Virus record (IMG/VR): IMGVR_UViG_3300034198_005392
Location: 1 to 21,848 of that record
Reading direction: 5' to 3' (one strand)
DNA from: a virus
Length of the DNA: 21,848 nucleotides
The notes under the pieces are model-generated. The model searched no databases, was not told the DNA's origin, and saw nothing but the letters and a program-made list of their open reading frames with translations. The translations under genes and the position numbers were made by a program. This document shows positions 594-8,614 of this stretch, piece after piece. The first letter of the stretch is position 1. Each line of letters begins with the position of its first letter.

Positions 594-2094
594 CATCCGG
601 CAGTTCTGCCGGCTCCTGAAGCACACCGAAGACCCGCACACGGGCCAGCAGTTCGTGCCGGAACCGTGGCAGGACGACTACCTCGCCGCGCTGTTCAACA
701 CGCGGAACGAGGCTGGGCTTCGCCAGTACATGACGAGCTTCTTGTTTCTGCCTCGCAAGCAGGGCAAGACGGCTCTGGTCGCGGCAATCGCCCTCTACGA
801 GGGCTTTTTCGGCCAGCACGGCGGCCAAATCATCATCGCGGCTGGCGACCGCGAGCAGGCTAGGAAGCTCTTCGACGCCTGCAAGAACTTCCTCGACTCG
901 TGCCCCGGCCTGGCGAAACGCTGCAAGGTCTACAAGAACTCGATCTTCTTCCCCAGCACGAAGACGACGGCGCAAATCATCAGCCGCGAGGCGAAAACCA
1001 AACACGGCTTCAATCCGAGCCTGGTGGTTGTGGACGAGTTGCACGTTCAGCCCAATCGCGCCCTGCTCGACGTGCTGACCAGCGGTATGGGTGCTCGAGC
1101 CGAGCCCCTGGTCGTCTACCTCTCGACGGCCGGGATGGACCGCGTCGGCCCCTGCTACGACGAGTTCCAGCGGGCCGTCAAGGTGCGTGACGGCCTGATT
1201 CAAGATCCGTCCTACCTCCCCTGCCTCTACTACGCCGATGAGGACGACGACCCGTTCTCGGAGGAGACGTGGAAGAAAGCTCAACCGAACTACCTCGTGA
1301 CGGTCACGAAGCGGTTCATGGAGCGGGAGATGCTCAAGGCGAAGGAGTCGGTCGCCGAGGAGATCAAGTTCCGCACCCTGTTCCTGAACCAGTGGTGCTC
1401 CAACGGGGCGAACCGCTTCTTCCGCATCGGCGAGTGGGATGCCTGCAACGCCCCGCTTCTGCCGACCGACGGCCGCCCTTGGTACTGCGCCCTTGACCTC
1501 TCAAGCACCGAGGACACGACGGCGTTCGCCGCGGTCAGCCCCCTGATCGACCCCGAGACGGGCGCGACCAGCTACGACATTCACTGCCACCTGTTCATCC
1601 CCGACGAGAAGGCCGACCGCTCGGAGGCACCGTATCGCCAATGGGCGAGGGATGGATTCGTTACACTGACAGATGGGCCGATTGTCGATTACGACGTTGT
1701 GAGAAACTACGTTCTCTCGTTTTGCGAGAAGAACAACGTCCGCACTATTGCCATCGACCGCTGGAATGCCACGCAAGTCACCACCCAACTGATGAACGAA
1801 GGGCTGGACGTGAAGCTCTACGGTCAGGGGTACGCGAGCATGAGCGCCCCGACGAAGCTGCTGCACGCCGCCACGCTCGGAAAGAGGATCAGGCACGGCG
1901 GAAACCCGGCCTTGGCCCTCCAGATGAGCAATATGCAAGTCAAGCAGGACGACGCCGACAACCTGAAGCCGACCAAGAAGAACTCGCACTCGACAGCCAG
2001 GATCGACGGGGCTGTGGCGACGATCATGTGCTTCGGGCTGTGCGGCAGCGAGCCGCCGCCGCCGACCGATGACCCCGTACTCATGGTGCTGTGA
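577..2094 (+). CDS. terL: Terminase large subunit (HK97-type, Terminase_1)
   Basis: This is the ATPase and nuclease of the DNA-packaging motor. Counting from ATG 577 (505 residues): Walker A PRKQGKT at 59-65, Walker B LVVVDE at 149-154 with catalytic acidic residues, then an RNase-H-like nuclease domain with aspartates at D307 (ALDLSS), D394 (AIDR) and D477 (ARIDGAVA). Order and spacing match full-length HK97-type large terminases, so both activities should be intact. An in-frame ATG at 562 would add five residues (MSCLA); I prefer 577 because GGATGAG precedes it by about 10 bases and nothing similar precedes 562. It overlaps the small terminase, and its stop overlaps the portal start as GTGA. 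Confidence 0.93.
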   Translation: MPPRVDIRQFCRLLKHTEDPHTGQQFVPEPWQDDYLAALFNTRNEAGLRQYMTSFLFLPRKQGKTALVAAIALYEGFFGQHGGQIIIAAGDREQARKLFDACKNFLDSCPGLAKRCKVYKNSIFFPSTKTTAQIISREAKTKHGFNPSLVVVDELHVQPNRALLDVLTSGMGARAEPLVVYLSTAGMDRVGPCYDEFQRAVKVRDGLIQDPSYLPCLYYADEDDDPFSEETWKKAQPNYLVTVTKRFMEREMLKAKESVAEEIKFRTLFLNQWCSNGANRFFRIGEWDACNAPLLPTDGRPWYCALDLSSTEDTTAFAAVSPLIDPETGATSYDIHCHLFIPDEKADRSEAPYRQWARDGFVTLTDGPIVDYDVVRNYVLSFCEKNNVRTIAIDRWNATQVTTQLMNEGLDVKLYGQGYASMSAPTKLLHAATLGKRIRHGGNPALALQMSNMQVKQDDADNLKPTKKNSHSTARIDGAVATIMCFGLCGSEPPPPTDDPVLMVL

Positions 2095-3722
2095 CGGTGG
2101 ACTCACTTGACTCCGAAGCCCTGGGCCTGATCGAACTGCGGAGCAATCTGTCCCGCATTTTCGAGGAGATCGCCGAGACGAGGAGGACGATTTCCGGCGT
2201 CCCCGTCTCCCCCGAAACGAGCCTCGAGTGCGCCGCGGTTCTCTGCTGCGTGCGGGTGCTGGCAGAGTCGTTGGCGTCGATGCCGATGAACGTCTACCGC
2301 CGGCTCAAGGGGGGCGGCAAAGAGATCGCCGACGAGCTGTGGCTGCACGAGGTGCTGGCCCACCAGCCGAACTCGTGGATGACGGCGTTTGAATTTCGCG
2401 AGCTGATGATGTCGTGGCTCCTGCTCTGGGGCAACGCCTACGCCCTGATCGTCCCCAGCAGCGAGCACGGTGCCGTCAGCGAGCTGATCCCTCTCCACCC
2501 GTCGCGGATGGAGGTGAAGCGGCTCAGTAACGGCAAGCTCCGGTTCTACTTCACGCCACCGTCGTCGATCTTTGAGCCGAACCCGACGGTGAAGGAGTAT
2601 CGGCAGGACGAGATTTTTGTGCTCCGCTGGCTCTCGAGCGACGGAGTGAAGGGGTACATCCCGACGACGCTCAACCGCGAAGCCATCGCGCTCGCCAAGG
2701 CGACCGAACTGCATTCGGGCGCGTACTTCGGCAACGGCGGGCAGCCCGGATCGTACTTCGAGACCAGCACCCCGCAGAAGCCCGAGACGCTCGTCCGGTT
2801 CAAGGATCAGTACAACGAGGCGCACCAGGGGCCGGGGAACCACTTCAAGACGTTCGTCGTCCCCTTCGGCTTCACCTACAAGCAGGCCGAGGTTCGCAAC
2901 GATTCTGCACAGCTAGTTGAGACTAGGCGGTATCAACTCGCCGAGGTGGCTAGGTGCTATCGCGTGCCCCCCCACATGGTGGGCGACCTGAAGGACGTTC
3001 GCTTCAGCACCGTCGAGCAGTCCGCGATCGACTTCGTCACGTTCAGCCTGATCCCGTGGTGCCGGCGCTGGGAAGCCGCCTGCCGCCGCGACCTCGTCGT
3101 GGACGACAAGCAGTATTTCGTCGGCTTCGACGTGAACTCGCTCATGGCCGGCGACTACGCCGCCAGGGCACAGTTCATCCGCGAGATGTGGAACATCGGA
3201 GCACTCAACATCGACGAGGTTCGCGCCCAGATCGGCTACAACCCGCTCGAGGACGGTCAGGGCAAGAAGCGGTTCGTTCAGGTCAATATGCAGCTCCTCG
3301 AGGGCTTCACGCTCCAGAATCCCGGCGGCCAGCCGGTCGATCAGGCCAAGCAGACGCCCGCCCAGCCAGCCCCCGAGGCCGACACGCCGCCCGAGAACGA
3401 CACCCGCGACCTCGCCGCGGCCGAGGTGGTCTTCAAGACGAACCTCCGCCGGCTCGCACAAGTCGAGGTGGACGGCGTGCTCGAGCGCCGCAACAAGCCC
3501 GAGAAGCTGGCCGCCTGGCTGGATCAGGTGAGCGGCCGGATGCGCGAGGAACTGCTTGAGCCCGCCCGTGCTACCGGCCGAGACATCGACCAATTCGTGG
3601 TAGCGTGGATGAATCGGTCTCGTGATCTGCTCCTCGAGTGCCACCGGAGCGGCACGAAGTACGAAACGGTCAAGGAGGGCTGGTGCGACAAGCACCTTGA
3701 AGCCAATGCCGCAACCGCTTGA
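2091..3722 (+). CDS. Portal protein, HK97 family
   Basis: The portal forms the twelve-subunit ring at one capsid vertex through which DNA enters and leaves. The 543-residue protein has the HK97-family core: ECAAVLCCVRVLAESLASMP (46-65), a helical stretch with LLWGNAYALI (111-120), and RVPPHMVGD (291-299) ahead of the clip/stem region. Around 410-440 there is a Pro/Gln/Glu-rich linker, then an extra helical tail (about 440-540) beyond the usual core. The start is GTG 2091, overlapping the large terminase stop (GTGA); a second in-frame GTG follows two codons later. There is no clear Shine-Dalgarno sequence, so translation is probably coupled. The 3' end overlaps the ferritin-like gene by 17 bases. 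Confidence 0.93.
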   Translation: MTVDSLDSEALGLIELRSNLSRIFEEIAETRRTISGVPVSPETSLECAAVLCCVRVLAESLASMPMNVYRRLKGGGKEIADELWLHEVLAHQPNSWMTAFEFRELMMSWLLLWGNAYALIVPSSEHGAVSELIPLHPSRMEVKRLSNGKLRFYFTPPSSIFEPNPTVKEYRQDEIFVLRWLSSDGVKGYIPTTLNREAIALAKATELHSGAYFGNGGQPGSYFETSTPQKPETLVRFKDQYNEAHQGPGNHFKTFVVPFGFTYKQAEVRNDSAQLVETRRYQLAEVARCYRVPPHMVGDLKDVRFSTVEQSAIDFVTFSLIPWCRRWEAACRRDLVVDDKQYFVGFDVNSLMAGDYAARAQFIREMWNIGALNIDEVRAQIGYNPLEDGQGKKRFVQVNMQLLEGFTLQNPGGQPVDQAKQTPAQPAPEADTPPENDTRDLAAAEVVFKTNLRRLAQVEVDGVLERRNKPEKLAAWLDQVSGRMREELLEPARATGRDIDQFVVAWMNRSRDLLLECHRSGTKYETVKEGWCDKHLEANAATA

Positions 3723-4179
3723 AGGCGTCGTCGATGCGTTGCAGGCGTCTGCCGCCCTGCACATGACGGCGATCGAGAACTATCAGGCACAGGCCGAGCA
3801 TCTGGACCGCTGGGGCTACGGCAAGCTGGCCGCAGCGTACCGCGAGGATGTCGAGGAGGAGCGTGGGCACCTCCGCGACGTGCAGGCGAGGCTCGAGTTC
3901 TACGACGTTCAGCCGTCCTACGACCATGAGCAGCCGGATTGGCCGCGCCACGACTACGAGGGCATTCTGGCCGCGAACCTCGCGATCGAGTCGGCCGCAG
4001 CAGAGGTCGAGCGTGCCGCCGTCGTGGCCTGCCGGGCCGTCGGCGACGAGATTTCGGCCCTCGTTTTCGCCAAGTTGCTCGCCGGAAGTGAGGCGTCGGT
4101 GGCGGAAAACGAGGCGATTCAGCGTGTGATCGAGCAGATCGGTCTGGACAACTACCTCGCGAATCAGGTGACGGCATGA
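3706..4179 (+). CDS. Bacterioferritin-like four-helix protein
   Basis: Bacterioferritins oxidise Fe(II) at a di-iron site and store ferric iron in a 24-subunit cage. This 157-residue protein matches their length (about 158) and helix layout: helices near 5-35, 38-66, 84-112 and 114-143, a long crossing loop at 67-83, and a short last helix IGLDNYLANQV close to the E. coli Bfr ending. Using Bfr numbering from memory, ligands E51, H54 and E94 correspond to E52, H55 and E95, but E18 aligns with H19, E127 with S128 (E129 adjacent) and H130 with S131; the heme methionine M52 aligns with R53. The ferroxidase site is therefore partial. ATG 3706 is the first start that gives this fold; a GTG at 3622 would add unrelated residues. 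It lies between portal and protease, overlapping both. A structural four-helix role without iron is the main alternative. Confidence 0.72.
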   Translation: MPQPLEGVVDALQASAALHMTAIENYQAQAEHLDRWGYGKLAAAYREDVEEERGHLRDVQARLEFYDVQPSYDHEQPDWPRHDYEGILAANLAIESAAAEVERAAVVACRAVGDEISALVFAKLLAGSEASVAENEAIQRVIEQIGLDNYLANQVTA

Positions 4180-5813
4180 ACGGCGACATTGAGCGGCGCA
4201 CTTTCATCTCCGACGCGACGATCGAGTACCGCGAGGGCGACAAGAAGCCCGTGATTTCGGGCTATGCGGCCGTCTTCAACGTCGAGAGCCGCAATCTGGG
4301 CGGCTTCATCGAGTCGATTCACCCGAATGCCTTCGACAGGGTGCTCTCCGAGACCCCCGACGTGATCGGCGTGTTCAATCACGACCGCAACAACCTCCTG
4401 GGCCGCACCGGAAACGGCACGATGCGGCTCACGAAGGACTCCTACGGCCTCCGCTACGCGATCGACGTGAACGAAAACACGTCTGTCGGCAAGAACGTCG
4501 TCGAGTGGGTGAAGGATCGCACCGTCATCGGGTCGTCTTTCGCCTTCGCGGTGCGCCGCAGCAACGGAACGGACGGCGATTCGTGGTCTACCGACCACCA
4601 GAGGGGCATTCGGAAGCGCGAAGTTCGCGAAATCACGCGACTCGAGGACGTTGGACCCGTCGTTCGGCCCGCCTACGACTCCTCGAGCGTCGTCGTGAGC
4701 CGTCGCGCGATCGAAATGGCGCTCGGCGAGTCGTTTCGGCCGGTCACGACGATGGCGAACGCCTCGAAGCGCGGCCTGAAGCTCGCGCATGGTCGCGAAG
4801 GCGTCGATCCGAGGCTTCTTTGCGTCGCCGAGCGCGTCGCGAACCGCGAAATCGTCAGCGTGGAGGAGGTTTCCTACCTGGCAAGCGTCTACGAGCGCTG
4901 CCTGGCGGCAAAAGTCACCGGCTGGTCGGGTTCTCCCGCCTGGATCGAGTGGCAACTGGCCGGCGGCGACACCGGGGAGAAGTGGGTTGCTCGGCGGGCG
5001 GCGTCTGATCAGGCTCAAGAGCCTGATCAGGCACCGCCGCCGTCCATCGAGCCCCGCTCCGAGCCGCAAATCAGCCTGGTTCCCACCTCCGGCATGGCCG
5101 CGGCGGCGAAGCGTGGCCTCGCGCTGCACGAAGCCGGCCGATCGGGCGACGGCCTCAAGCCTGAGACGGTCGCGCGGGCCAAGAAGATCGCGTCGCGCGA
5201 CGAACTGACGCCGGAGCACGTCCGCGAGATGCGGGCCTGGTTCCGCCGGCACAAGGTGGACAAGAAGCCGGGGTGGAACGCCCGCGGCGAGGAGACGCCG
5301 GGCTACACGGCGTGGCAGCTCTGGGGCGGAGACGCGGCCTGGCGGTGGTCTGAGGCAAAGGTTCGCCAGATGGAGGGCGAGAAGCGCGATGACGGCGAGG
5401 AGGAATACCCCGGCACGATCTCGCCCGCGAACCTCATGCTCGCCGAAGCCGAGGAGAGCATCGCCGAGGAGTCTGGCAAGTGGCCGCAGGAAGGCCCGGC
5501 CGGTGCCCACTACATGGCGGCGAGCCCGTTCGCAGAGCGTGGCATGAAGTGCGCGAACTGCGTCTTCTACGAGGGCGGCGGCGCGTGCGAGATCGTCAAC
5601 GGCGAGATCGCGCCTGAAGGTCTGTGCAAGTTGTGGATCATCCCCGAGGAACGCATGAGCGAAGAGAAGAAGCCCGAGACGCAGGCGGAGCCGCCGGCTC
5701 CGCCTGCTCCGACCAACGAGCGGTCTGCCGAAGAGAAGCAGAACGAAGAGATCGCGGTGAAGATCGCGACCCTTCAGGGGACAATTCTTCGGACTCAGTT
5801 GCACGCGATGTAA
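4176..5813 (+). CDS. Prohead protease with duplicated accessory domain and C-terminal four-Cys (HiPIP-like) domain
   Basis: The N-terminal ~190 residues are an HK97-type (S78) prohead protease, which trims the capsid protein during maturation: ISGYAAVFN (27-35), His69 in FNHDRN, nucleophile Ser121 in GSSFAF, and acidic E157/D158 before the PVVRPAY segment. At 545 residues it is far longer than a plain protease. Residues 197-270 and 311-391 are two diverged copies of one module (KRGL start, WQL.GGD end), separated by a Pro-rich linker. Then C459, C462, C471 and C484 (KCANC...GLCKLW) form a C-x2-C-x8-C-x12-C set like the cluster end of high-potential iron-sulfur proteins; a zinc site is the alternative. 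A Pro/Glu-rich tail ends the protein. The start overlaps the previous stop (ATGA), with AGGTGA 4 bases upstream. Protease call is firm; C-terminal calls are inference. Confidence 0.85.
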   Translation: MNGDIERRTFISDATIEYREGDKKPVISGYAAVFNVESRNLGGFIESIHPNAFDRVLSETPDVIGVFNHDRNNLLGRTGNGTMRLTKDSYGLRYAIDVNENTSVGKNVVEWVKDRTVIGSSFAFAVRRSNGTDGDSWSTDHQRGIRKREVREITRLEDVGPVVRPAYDSSSVVVSRRAIEMALGESFRPVTTMANASKRGLKLAHGREGVDPRLLCVAERVANREIVSVEEVSYLASVYERCLAAKVTGWSGSPAWIEWQLAGGDTGEKWVARRAASDQAQEPDQAPPPSIEPRSEPQISLVPTSGMAAAAKRGLALHEAGRSGDGLKPETVARAKKIASRDELTPEHVREMRAWFRRHKVDKKPGWNARGEETPGYTAWQLWGGDAAWRWSEAKVRQMEGEKRDDGEEEYPGTISPANLMLAEAEESIAEESGKWPQEGPAGAHYMAASPFAERGMKCANCVFYEGGGACEIVNGEIAPEGLCKLWIIPEERMSEEKKPETQAEPPAPPAPTNERSAEEKQNEEIAVKIATLQGTILRTQLHAM

Positions 5814-5965: not shown

Positions 5966-7342
5966 ATGGCAGCGTCGAATCTCAAGCGTCTTCAGGAACG
6001 TGCCGCCGCCGTCGCCGAGCGGATGAAGGAGCTGGCCGCGATCGAGGAGCGGTCGGCGGATCAGACCAAGGAACTCATCTCGCTCGGCACCCAGTCCGAC
6101 GAGCTGAAGTCCTCGCTCGAGTTCGAGGGGCGCATCGCGGCCAAGGAGGCCGAGCTTCGCGCGATGGTGGACAAGTCGGCCCCGGCCGGCACCGTCGCCC
6201 CGCCCGCGCCGCCCGCTGGCGAGCCGGCTCCGTCGAAGGACGAGGGCAAGAAGCTCGAGATTCGGGCGCTGATGCCCCACCACACCAGCCTGCGGGCGTT
6301 CAACGACGGCCCCGAGGCCGTCGAGAGCGCCTACAAGTGCGGCCGGTGGCTGCGGGCCACGATGTTCAAGCACCCCGATGACATCCGGTGGTGCAAGGAT
6401 CACGGCGTCGAGTCCCGCGCCATGAACGAGGGCAGCAACTCGGCCGGTGGCGCGCTCGTCCCCGAGGAGTTCGCCGCCCGCGTGATCCGGCTCGTCGAGA
6501 CCTACGGCACCTTCACGGCGTCGAACGTCGAGAAGGTGACGATGACTCGCGACACGATGATCATCCCGAAGCGCATCACCGGCACGACCGCCTACTTCGT
6601 CGGCGAAGGCACGACGGTGAACGAGTCGGAGCCCACCTACGCGAACGTCCAGCTCATCGCGAAGAAGCTGGCGTGCGGCACGCGGATGTCGAGCGAGGTC
6701 GTCGAGGATGCTCTCGTGGGCCTCGTGGACGCCTGTGCGGTTGAGTACGGCACGAGCCTGAGCTACCGCCAGGATCTGTGCGGCTGGCTCGGCGACGGCA
6801 CCTCGAGCTTCGGCGGGATCTACGGCGTCGTGCCGAAGATCAACGACGGCACGCACGCGGCCGGCGTGATCACTGCCGGCACGGGTGCGACCGGGTTCGA
6901 GACCCTCACGCCCACCGACTTCATCAAGACGATCGGCAAGATGCCGCTCTACGCCCGCCAGGGCGCTGCGTGGTACATCTCGCCGTCCGGCTTCGCGGCC
7001 TCGATGGCTCGCCTCCGCTACGCGGCCGGCGGCAACACCGTCGAGCAGCTCGGCGGCGGGGTGTCCGAGACGTTCCTCGGCTACCCGGTCAACCTCGTCC
7101 ACGTCATGGACGGGACTCTGGGTGCCGATCCGAGCAAGGTGAAGGTTCTCTTCGCCAACCTCGGGCTCTCGAGCATCTACGGCCGGCGTCGGGACTTCTC
7201 GGTGCGGCTGTTCGATCAGGTCTACGCGACCACCGACCAGCTCCTCCTCCAGGGAACGATGCGGTTCGACATCGTCCACCACTCGCTCGGCGACAACACG
7301 ACCCCCGGCCCGGTCATCGCTCTCAAGACCGCCGCGTCGTGA
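5966..7342 (+). CDS. Major capsid protein, HK97 fold
   Basis: This protein forms the icosahedral shell. Residues 1-65 are a charged helical, coiled-coil-like segment, the expected delta (scaffold) domain; a Pro/Ala-rich linker (about 71-93) follows, and the shell domain starts near 100. Conserved HK97-type blocks are visible: SAGGALVPEEFAARVI (159-174), TAYFVGEGTTVNESEPTY (208-225), WLGDGT (274-279), AWYISPSGFAASMARL (335-350), LGYPV (371-375) and the C-terminal RFDIVHHS. The 458-residue length fits a precursor whose first ~95 residues are removed by the upstream protease, which would explain the absence of a separate scaffold gene. AGGAG (5951-5955) lies 10 bases before the ATG. The exact cleavage site cannot be read from the sequence. 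Confidence 0.94.
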   Translation: MAASNLKRLQERAAAVAERMKELAAIEERSADQTKELISLGTQSDELKSSLEFEGRIAAKEAELRAMVDKSAPAGTVAPPAPPAGEPAPSKDEGKKLEIRALMPHHTSLRAFNDGPEAVESAYKCGRWLRATMFKHPDDIRWCKDHGVESRAMNEGSNSAGGALVPEEFAARVIRLVETYGTFTASNVEKVTMTRDTMIIPKRITGTTAYFVGEGTTVNESEPTYANVQLIAKKLACGTRMSSEVVEDALVGLVDACAVEYGTSLSYRQDLCGWLGDGTSSFGGIYGVVPKINDGTHAAGVITAGTGATGFETLTPTDFIKTIGKMPLYARQGAAWYISPSGFAASMARLRYAAGGNTVEQLGGGVSETFLGYPVNLVHVMDGTLGADPSKVKVLFANLGLSSIYGRRRDFSVRLFDQVYATTDQLLLQGTMRFDIVHHSLGDNTTPGPVIALKTAAS

Positions 7343-7382: not shown

Positions 7383-7808
7383 ATGATTCACTCCCAGATG
7401 GAAAAGGTCGTCGGCTCCGTCCCCACCACGGTGGGCTCGAGCGCGGTGACCCTGACGATCGACACGCGCGGCTACGACTACGCCAGCGTGGCCGTGCTGC
7501 GTGCGAGCAACGCCTCGACGGTGTTCGCGAGCGTCCTGAAGGTCGAGGAGTCGGACGACAACTCGTCCTACTCCAACGTCTCGGGCTTCGTCGGTGGCAC
7601 CGACTTCACGATCCCGGCGGTCACCGACACTGCGGTGGCCTCGCTCGTGAAGCTCGACCTCGACACCAAGGCTCGGAAGCGCTACCTGAAGGTCACGGCG
7701 ACCCCGGCGGTCAGTGTGAACACGGTGGTGACGGCGCGGCTGTCCCGAGGCGAGGAAGCCCCGGCGACCGCCCTCGATGCCGGCGTGCTGGCCTGGGTCA
7801 AGGGCTGA
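7383..7808 (+). CDS. Probable accessory head (decoration-type) protein
   Basis: The 141-residue product is rich in Val, Thr, Ser and Asp and looks all-beta, with alternating strands such as AVTLTIDTRGYDYASVAVL and KRYLKVTATPAV and no membrane or catalytic motifs. I recall similar small proteins right after capsid genes in other tailed phages, usually unannotated; a role in decorating or stabilising the shell is inferred from position and predicted beta content. A GAAGGAG Shine-Dalgarno sequence (7365-7371) lies about 11 bases before the ATG, in a leader (CTCAACGAAGGAGC) that resembles those of the neighbouring capsid and glycosyltransferase genes. An alternative start at M6 cannot be excluded. 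Confidence 0.6.
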   Translation: MIHSQMEKVVGSVPTTVGSSAVTLTIDTRGYDYASVAVLRASNASTVFASVLKVEESDDNSSYSNVSGFVGGTDFTIPAVTDTAVASLVKLDLDTKARKRYLKVTATPAVSVNTVVTARLSRGEEAPATALDAGVLAWVKG

Positions 7809-7882: not shown

Positions 7883-8614
7883 GTGCTACTGCGTATCGGA
7901 AACGTCGAAGCTGAACTCCGAGTCGCGGCGGTGATGAGCACCCCGCGACTCGGGTTCACCGACAACTTCTTCTGCGTCTCGACGGCGCTTGCCCCCCACG
8001 GCATCTCGCCGGTCAAGGTGACCGGAGCTTTCTGGGGGCAGTGCCTCCAGAGGTCGCTCGAGCAAGTCATCGACAACCACGACGCCGTCTTCACCATCGA
8101 CTACGACACGGTGTTCTCGTCGAAGACGGTGGAGGCGCTGGTCGCCCTGTTCCTGCACTCTGGGGTGGACGCGATTGCGCCGCTCCAGATCAAGCGGGAG
8201 AGCGACGCCCTCATGTTCGCGCTGCCCGACGGCGACGTGGACGCGAAGACGACGGTCGGCGACGACTTCTTCTCGAGGTCGGTGCAGCCGGTGGAGACGG
8301 CCCACTTCGGGCTGACCCTCCTGCGGTGCTCGGCGCTGAAGCGGATGCCGAAGCCCTGGTTCCTCGCCACGCCGAACGAGAAGGGGGAGTGGACGGGTGG
8401 GCACACCGACGAGGACATCGCCTTCTGGCGGGGCTGGAAGGCCGCGGGCAACACACTGGGCATGGCGACGGGCATCAGCGTCGGTCACGCCGAGCTGATG
8501 GTGACGTGGCCCAGCCGGCGGCAGGGGGCAGGCGGCCGGGTGCAGCAGCACACGACCGACTACTGGACGAGCGGGCAGAAGGCACCTGAAGCAGCGTGGG
8601 GGCACGTCTCGTGA
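7883..8614 (+). CDS. GT-A-fold glycosyltransferase-like protein
   Basis: GT-A enzymes transfer sugars from nucleotide-sugar donors using a metal held by a DxD motif. Here NHDAVFTIDYDTVFSS carries D73-Y-D75 in the expected strand/turn, and AIAPLQIKR, HFGLTLLRCSALKRM and HTDEDIAFWRGWKAAGNTL followed by ISVGH (H202) match the acceptor/catalytic half of GT2-like proteins. At 243 residues it is a minimal catalytic domain without membrane segments, so it should act in the cytoplasm. The start is GTG, 7 bases after AGGAG (7871-7875). Its place among head genes suggests modification of capsid or tail proteins, as reported for some actinobacteriophages; substrate is unknown. The stop overlaps the next gene (GTGA). 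Confidence 0.75.
   Translation: MLLRIGNVEAELRVAAVMSTPRLGFTDNFFCVSTALAPHGISPVKVTGAFWGQCLQRSLEQVIDNHDAVFTIDYDTVFSSKTVEALVALFLHSGVDAIAPLQIKRESDALMFALPDGDVDAKTTVGDDFFSRSVQPVETAHFGLTLLRCSALKRMPKPWFLATPNEKGEWTGGHTDEDIAFWRGWKAAGNTLGMATGISVGHAELMVTWPSRRQGAGGRVQQHTTDYWTSGQKAPEAAWGHVS

Follow-up and report, generated by a model that had tools for sequence, protein, structure and literature searches.

Among the closest described relatives of the phage protein family analysed here are the bacterioferritins (Bfr; TIGR00754, 5zur, 1bcf and P. aeruginosa BfrB), with which it shares the fold over its full length, short C-terminal helix included, a GLxNYL-type C-terminal motif, E51, H54, often E94, and Trp35-Gly36. 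The family differs from them by the replacement of E18 by His, E127 by Ser, H130 by Ser, Ala or Gly and Met52 by Arg, His or Gln, by invariant residues of its own (H32, R35, E64, R81, H82 and E102), by its viral location and by scores far under the bfr equivalog cut-off. Phage Dps-like and ferritin-like proteins in BFVD, such as that of Lactobacillus phage Semele, also contain a ferritin-like four-helix bundle, but their identity is mostly 11–16%, their TM-scores are lower than those of Bfr and they are named Dps or non-heme ferritin.

A targeting peptide of the LTVGSL type marks the C terminus of encapsulin cargo proteins. Some encapsulin systems hold ferritin-like or Bfr cargo (PMC8346489), and in these, as in the locus described here, a ferritin-like gene lies beside the gene of an HK97-fold shell. 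In our case, by contrast, the shell is encoded in a phage head operon that also includes portal, protease and terminase genes, phages can do without the ferritin gene and exchange it, and its product has no targeting peptide: reading the C termini of the family by eye, we found DNYLANQV(TA) or close variants and no LTVGSL-type peptide. Bfr homologues encoded by viruses are on record for a Bathyarchaeia virus, whose Bfr is described, in the available part of the report, as host-derived and with a ferroxidase function (PMC10904782), and for Flandersviridae (PMC11780533). The available parts of these two reports, with which we compared our family by description and not by sequence, mention neither a head-operon slot nor a remodelled site nor allele exchange. 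In the open-access literature we found no description of a phage head operon with a bacterioferritin relative. With this family the ferritin superfamily gains a large viral branch, missed by the phage family library and by the cultured-phage collection searched.

Gene organization and predicted structure

The window, i.e. the whole stretch of 21,848 nucleotides of viral DNA analysed here, had been reported in an initial annotation, made from the sequence alone, to encode a 157-residue Bfr-like protein between the portal and protease genes of an HK97-type head operon, overlapping both. Our analysis agrees with this description (Table 1). The ATG of the Bfr-like gene lies inside the portal ORF, its stop codon overlaps the ATG of the S78 protease gene as ATGA, and the neighbouring genes encode TerL, the portal, the protease and the HK97-type capsid protein. 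Given these overlaps, the portal, Bfr-like and protease genes are probably translationally coupled, and in this phage the gene would be read together with the head genes.

Table 1. Position of the Bfr-like gene, its neighbours and its putative ligand codons in the window.
Feature	Position	Strand	Remarks
Portal protein	2091..3722	+	3' end overlaps start of Bfr-like gene; PF04860 E 1.8e-88
Bfr-like ORF, 157 aa	3706..4179	+	Five-helix Bfr fold (predicted); H19/E52/H55 in place of canonical six-ligand di-iron site
Stretch replaced between window and near-twin L099	~3750..4140	+	~50-80% nucleotide identity in 30-base blocks; flanks ~90-100%
H19 codon (Bfr E18 equivalent)	3760..3762	+	His in 142/142 members
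E52-R53-G54-H55 codons	3859..3870	+	E51 and H54 kept in 142/142; heme Met52 replaced
E95 codon (Bfr E94 equivalent)	3988..3990	+	Glu/Asp in clades A and B, Val in large-phage clade
S128-S131 codons	4087..4098	+	Bfr E127 (always Ser) and H130 (Ser/Ala/Gly) lost
S78 prohead protease, long C-terminal extension	4176..5813	+	ATG overlaps stop of Bfr-like gene; PF04586 E 8.6e-38
HK97-type major capsid protein	5966..7342	+	PF05065 E 1.4e-24; phrog_10

The identity of the protein was supported by profile, sequence and structure comparisons. Its PF00210 score of 39.5 bits exceeds the curated Pfam cut-off of 24.5 and places it in the ferritin superfamily; it also matches TIGR00754 (bfr) with an E-value of 7.1e-14 and 52.1 bits, below the NCBIfam equivalog cut-off of 125.55. 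The top PDB sequence match is Bfr 5zur (E 4.4e-12), and the closest solved Bfrs are mostly 22–29% identical to it in sequence. The AlphaFold monomer model (pLDDT 93.8) is a four-helix bundle with helices at residues 8-35, 39-65, 84-111 and 115-145, followed by a short C-terminal helix at 147-152, and Foldseek gave TM-scores of 0.92–0.95 to Bfr. Superposition on P. aeruginosa BfrB with VIA-align (Z 24.4, 1.0 Å, 155 residues) revealed a constant offset of +1. These independent matches rule out a chance resemblance to ferritin. A phage scaffold as a better match is ruled out as well, since no PHROG profile matches the family members P0001, L113 or L106 and the top BFVD matches are ferritin and Dps types.

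Judged from sequence and predicted structure, the protein is a phage-specific offshoot of bacterioferritin that keeps the Bfr monomer fold. The C-terminal helix and its G..N.L motif are retained, and the conservation of the Bfr-like residues G146, N149 and L151 favours the retention of a ferritin-type cage, which is probably still formed. The protein ends in NYLANQVTA, in line with the initial annotation, which had seen no encapsulin-type C-terminal peptide.

Metal and heme site

In E. coli numbering we take the di-iron ligands of Bfr to be E18, E51, H54, E94, E127 and H130. Ligand equivalence was derived from the one-to-one superposition on the predicted model, in which the uniform offset to BfrB fixes the ligand map of the window protein. 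E52, H55 and E95 correspond to E51, H54 and E94, while E18, E127 and H130 are changed to H19, S128 and S131 and the heme ligand Met52 to R53. The di-iron site is therefore half kept and the heme Met lost, as had been proposed before. Bfr 5zur itself has Thr at position 127.

We aligned 142 distinct family members, which fall into three clades (A, B and a large-phage clade). His at position 18, Glu at 51, His at 54 and Ser at 127 are found in every member; position 130 is Ser, Ala or Gly and never His, and none of the 142 members has the intact six-residue set. At position 94, clades A and B have Glu or Asp, and 72 of 72 large-phage members have Val. The heme-ligating Met52 is replaced across the 142 members, mostly by Arg in clades A and B, and in the large-phage clade by His or Gln. 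The ligand pattern is thus invariant in the three clades although other sites vary; since residue 94 is Val in the large-phage clade, the site may differ among clades. Median dN/dS values of 0.14, 0.10 and 0.08 indicate strong purifying selection.

On the ligand map from the superposition, the site is a remodelled His-Glu-His set under strong purifying selection, in which the ferroxidase site within the subunit would have been rebuilt by loss of E127 and H130 on helix D and by the change of E18 on helix A to His, with E51 and H54 kept. Such a set would most likely bind a single metal ion, Fe(II) or Zn, and not an oxidising di-iron pair. Heme-assisted iron release is unlikely, because the heme Met is gone. 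The family thus offers a natural experiment in which a ferroxidase site appears to have been rewired with the fold unchanged.

Distribution and genomic context of the family

Scans of IMG/VR recovered 51 loci with the window protein, 222 matches with the family profile and 109 with a distant member, many of the latter on contigs >100 kb; these lists may partly overlap. The window protein had no relatives among 50,697 phage records, and the cultured-phage candidates, the MT835709 and phage Y5 records, were set aside as their matches look bacterial (in MT835709, a Bfd-like ORF directly precedes the Bfr gene). A cellular origin was rejected after two motif patterns, which distant cellular relatives may escape, were run against 84,980 bacterial and archaeal genomes and matched only two short contigs, both with the large-phage gene set. 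No record searched carried more than one copy; in the 75-kb record G001 (L106) the head operon begins at the contig edge, so an additional copy in the portal slot is possible there.

Most genes of the family adjoin a portal and/or protease gene (49 of 51 in the first scan and 68 of 80 in the second), and homologues between the two genes were found in most of the window's clade. Others occupy different contexts. Some are next to an integrase gene (L028/L072, L075, L080, L081, L095 and L102), and in L050, L103, L106 and their relatives the order is UvrD-like helicase, Bfr-like gene and DNA methyltransferase. In the large phages, a small Lys-rich protein is usually encoded before the Bfr-like gene, and sigma-factor and ClpP-like protease genes mostly lie downstream. 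The family tree separates the head-slot genes into two deep clades, A and B, with the methyltransferase-context genes as the sister group of clade B and the integrase-context genes mostly placed with clade A. We also observed, after the Bfr-like gene of some large phages, a gene for a cysteine-rich protein of 140 aa, with a CxNC motif and further Cys and of no clear family (L113 1371-1793; L114 3540-3968).

Gene absence and allele exchange in the head operon

In six portal-related records (L121/L122, L135/L136 and L143/L144) the portal gene leads directly into the protease gene and the Bfr gene is absent from this slot. For L121/L122, identity is 71% in the portal and 67% in the protease. No Bfr gene was found elsewhere in the L121, L144 and L139 records, which are perhaps fragments.

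Comparison of closely related operons revealed a different kind of change. The nearest portal relative of the window, L099/L125, shares 97–98% identity in portal and protease and only 59% in the Bfr protein, and the divergent stretch is confined to the interior of the gene (Table 1). Pairs with portal and protease 92–98% identical at the amino acid level have Bfr proteins of 52–59% identity. When the portals of a pair are at least 88% identical, the Bfr proteins fall below 70% in 38% of the pairs; for the other genes compared (TerL, portal, protease and capsid among them), some of which are represented by few pairs, this share is 0–3%. Mapped on the portal and protease tree, the A/B distribution requires 7–9 allele changes, 5 of which are forced by well-supported branches. 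By these sequence comparisons, two deep Bfr alleles are exchanged in the head slot, at least 5 and up to 9 times. Co-variation with portal, protease or capsid would be expected of a protein in physical contact with them. Its lack here argues for an autonomous role, which is probably host-facing or metal-facing, under purifying selection within each allele.

The small protein encoded after the capsid gene (window 7383-7808) shares 74% identity with its counterpart in the near-twin L099, its neighbours being 91–98% identical. It is possibly a second exchanged gene, perhaps for a decoration protein.

Possible role of the protein

We favour, with a probability of roughly one half, an accessory cage-type metal-binding protein that acts autonomously and is sometimes co-expressed with the head genes, its biochemistry being the part that we infer. 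The fold, the invariant ligand pattern, the purifying selection, the dispensable slot, the other contexts, the single copy and the allele exchange are all consistent with it. During infection the protein would act alone, as a binder or buffer of iron or a different metal or through contact with a host partner, and would not serve as a scaffold, decoration or cargo needed by this capsid. Against this, the place between portal and protease in most of the window's clade (49 of 51 loci in the first scan) points to an importance of late expression together with the head proteins. A role in handling iron or another metal is plausible. More tentatively, and with a probability well below one half, the family may be a widespread phage-only ferritin that turned a ferroxidase cage into a single-metal His-Glu-His protein facing a host factor (the iron pool, host Bfr or defence). 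If true, this would explain why the core is invariant and also why deep alleles were exchanged repeatedly at a single head-operon site. The accessory reading also makes the family a testable case of phages with their own metal-handling protein, versions of which are traded, and bears on the phage use of host iron.

The initial annotation had suggested that the phage packages the protein or builds it into the head, and a cage or dimer could indeed bind portal, protease or capsid during assembly, as an assembly factor or packaged like encapsulin cargo. The position between portal and protease is conserved in most relatives and the gene overlaps both of them; moreover, BFVD models of uncultured-phage "prohead protease" proteins match the ferritin-like fold (TM ~0.73), and large phages carry, a few genes away, a ClpP-like gene that matches head maturation proteases. 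However, related phages have the same head genes, with portal adjacent to protease, and lack the Bfr-like gene there; members of the family are also found away from head operons and in a different kind of large phage; and alleles differing by 41–48% are swapped while portal, protease and capsid show no corresponding change, the flanking portal and protease remaining 92–98% identical. These observations, together with the missing targeting peptide, weaken the encapsulin-like packaging reading and make a head-associated role unlikely.

We consider it decidedly unlikely that the phage subunit co-assembles with host Bfr to alter iron storage or block iron release. Natural hetero-oligomeric ferritins do mix different subunits, hetero-oligomeric Bfr/Ftn structures (9bts, 9iig and 9h1u) are among the matches, the Bfr fold and C-terminal helix are kept with the ferroxidase and heme residues lost, and allele swapping is compatible with a host-facing partner. 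On the other hand, mixed interfaces are doubtful at the low identity to solved Bfrs, and a passive subunit would not need an invariant His-Glu-His set. An ordinary auxiliary metabolic gene for iron storage, i.e. a functional ferritin for storing iron or for limiting Fenton damage in infection, agrees with the PF00210 score, with the virus-encoded Bfr of supposed ferroxidase function in the available part of PMC10904782 and with the bacterioferritin gene in Flandersviridae vOTUs in that of PMC11780533, but is very unlikely with three of six ferroxidase ligands and the heme Met replaced in 142 of 142 members and a bfr score of 52 against a cut-off of 125.55.

Other features of the head genes

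Three BFVD proteins named prohead protease (A0A6J7XDU5, A0A6J7WIS1 and A0A6J7WPK9) are modelled as a ferritin-like bundle, and may be independent ferritin-protease fusions. The long extension of the window protease contains two similar KRGL..LxGGD segments, the second of which is matched by phrog_2859, and a HiPIP-like motif (CANC...C...CKLW; window 5550-5627) whose cysteines are invariant in 27 aligned relatives; the Pfam HIPIP match (E 0.039) is below the cut-off and the structure model has a pLDDT of 47. A strict iron link between this domain and the Bfr-like gene was rejected: the four-Cys motif is frequent, but the proteases of the Bfr-positive L016, L040, L048 and L109 lack it and L135 has it without a Bfr gene. 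Protease length among relatives ranges from ~440 to 770 aa. An additional head-operon ORF (window 7883-8614) has weak matches only, one of them to a phage glycosyltransferase family (E 0.055).
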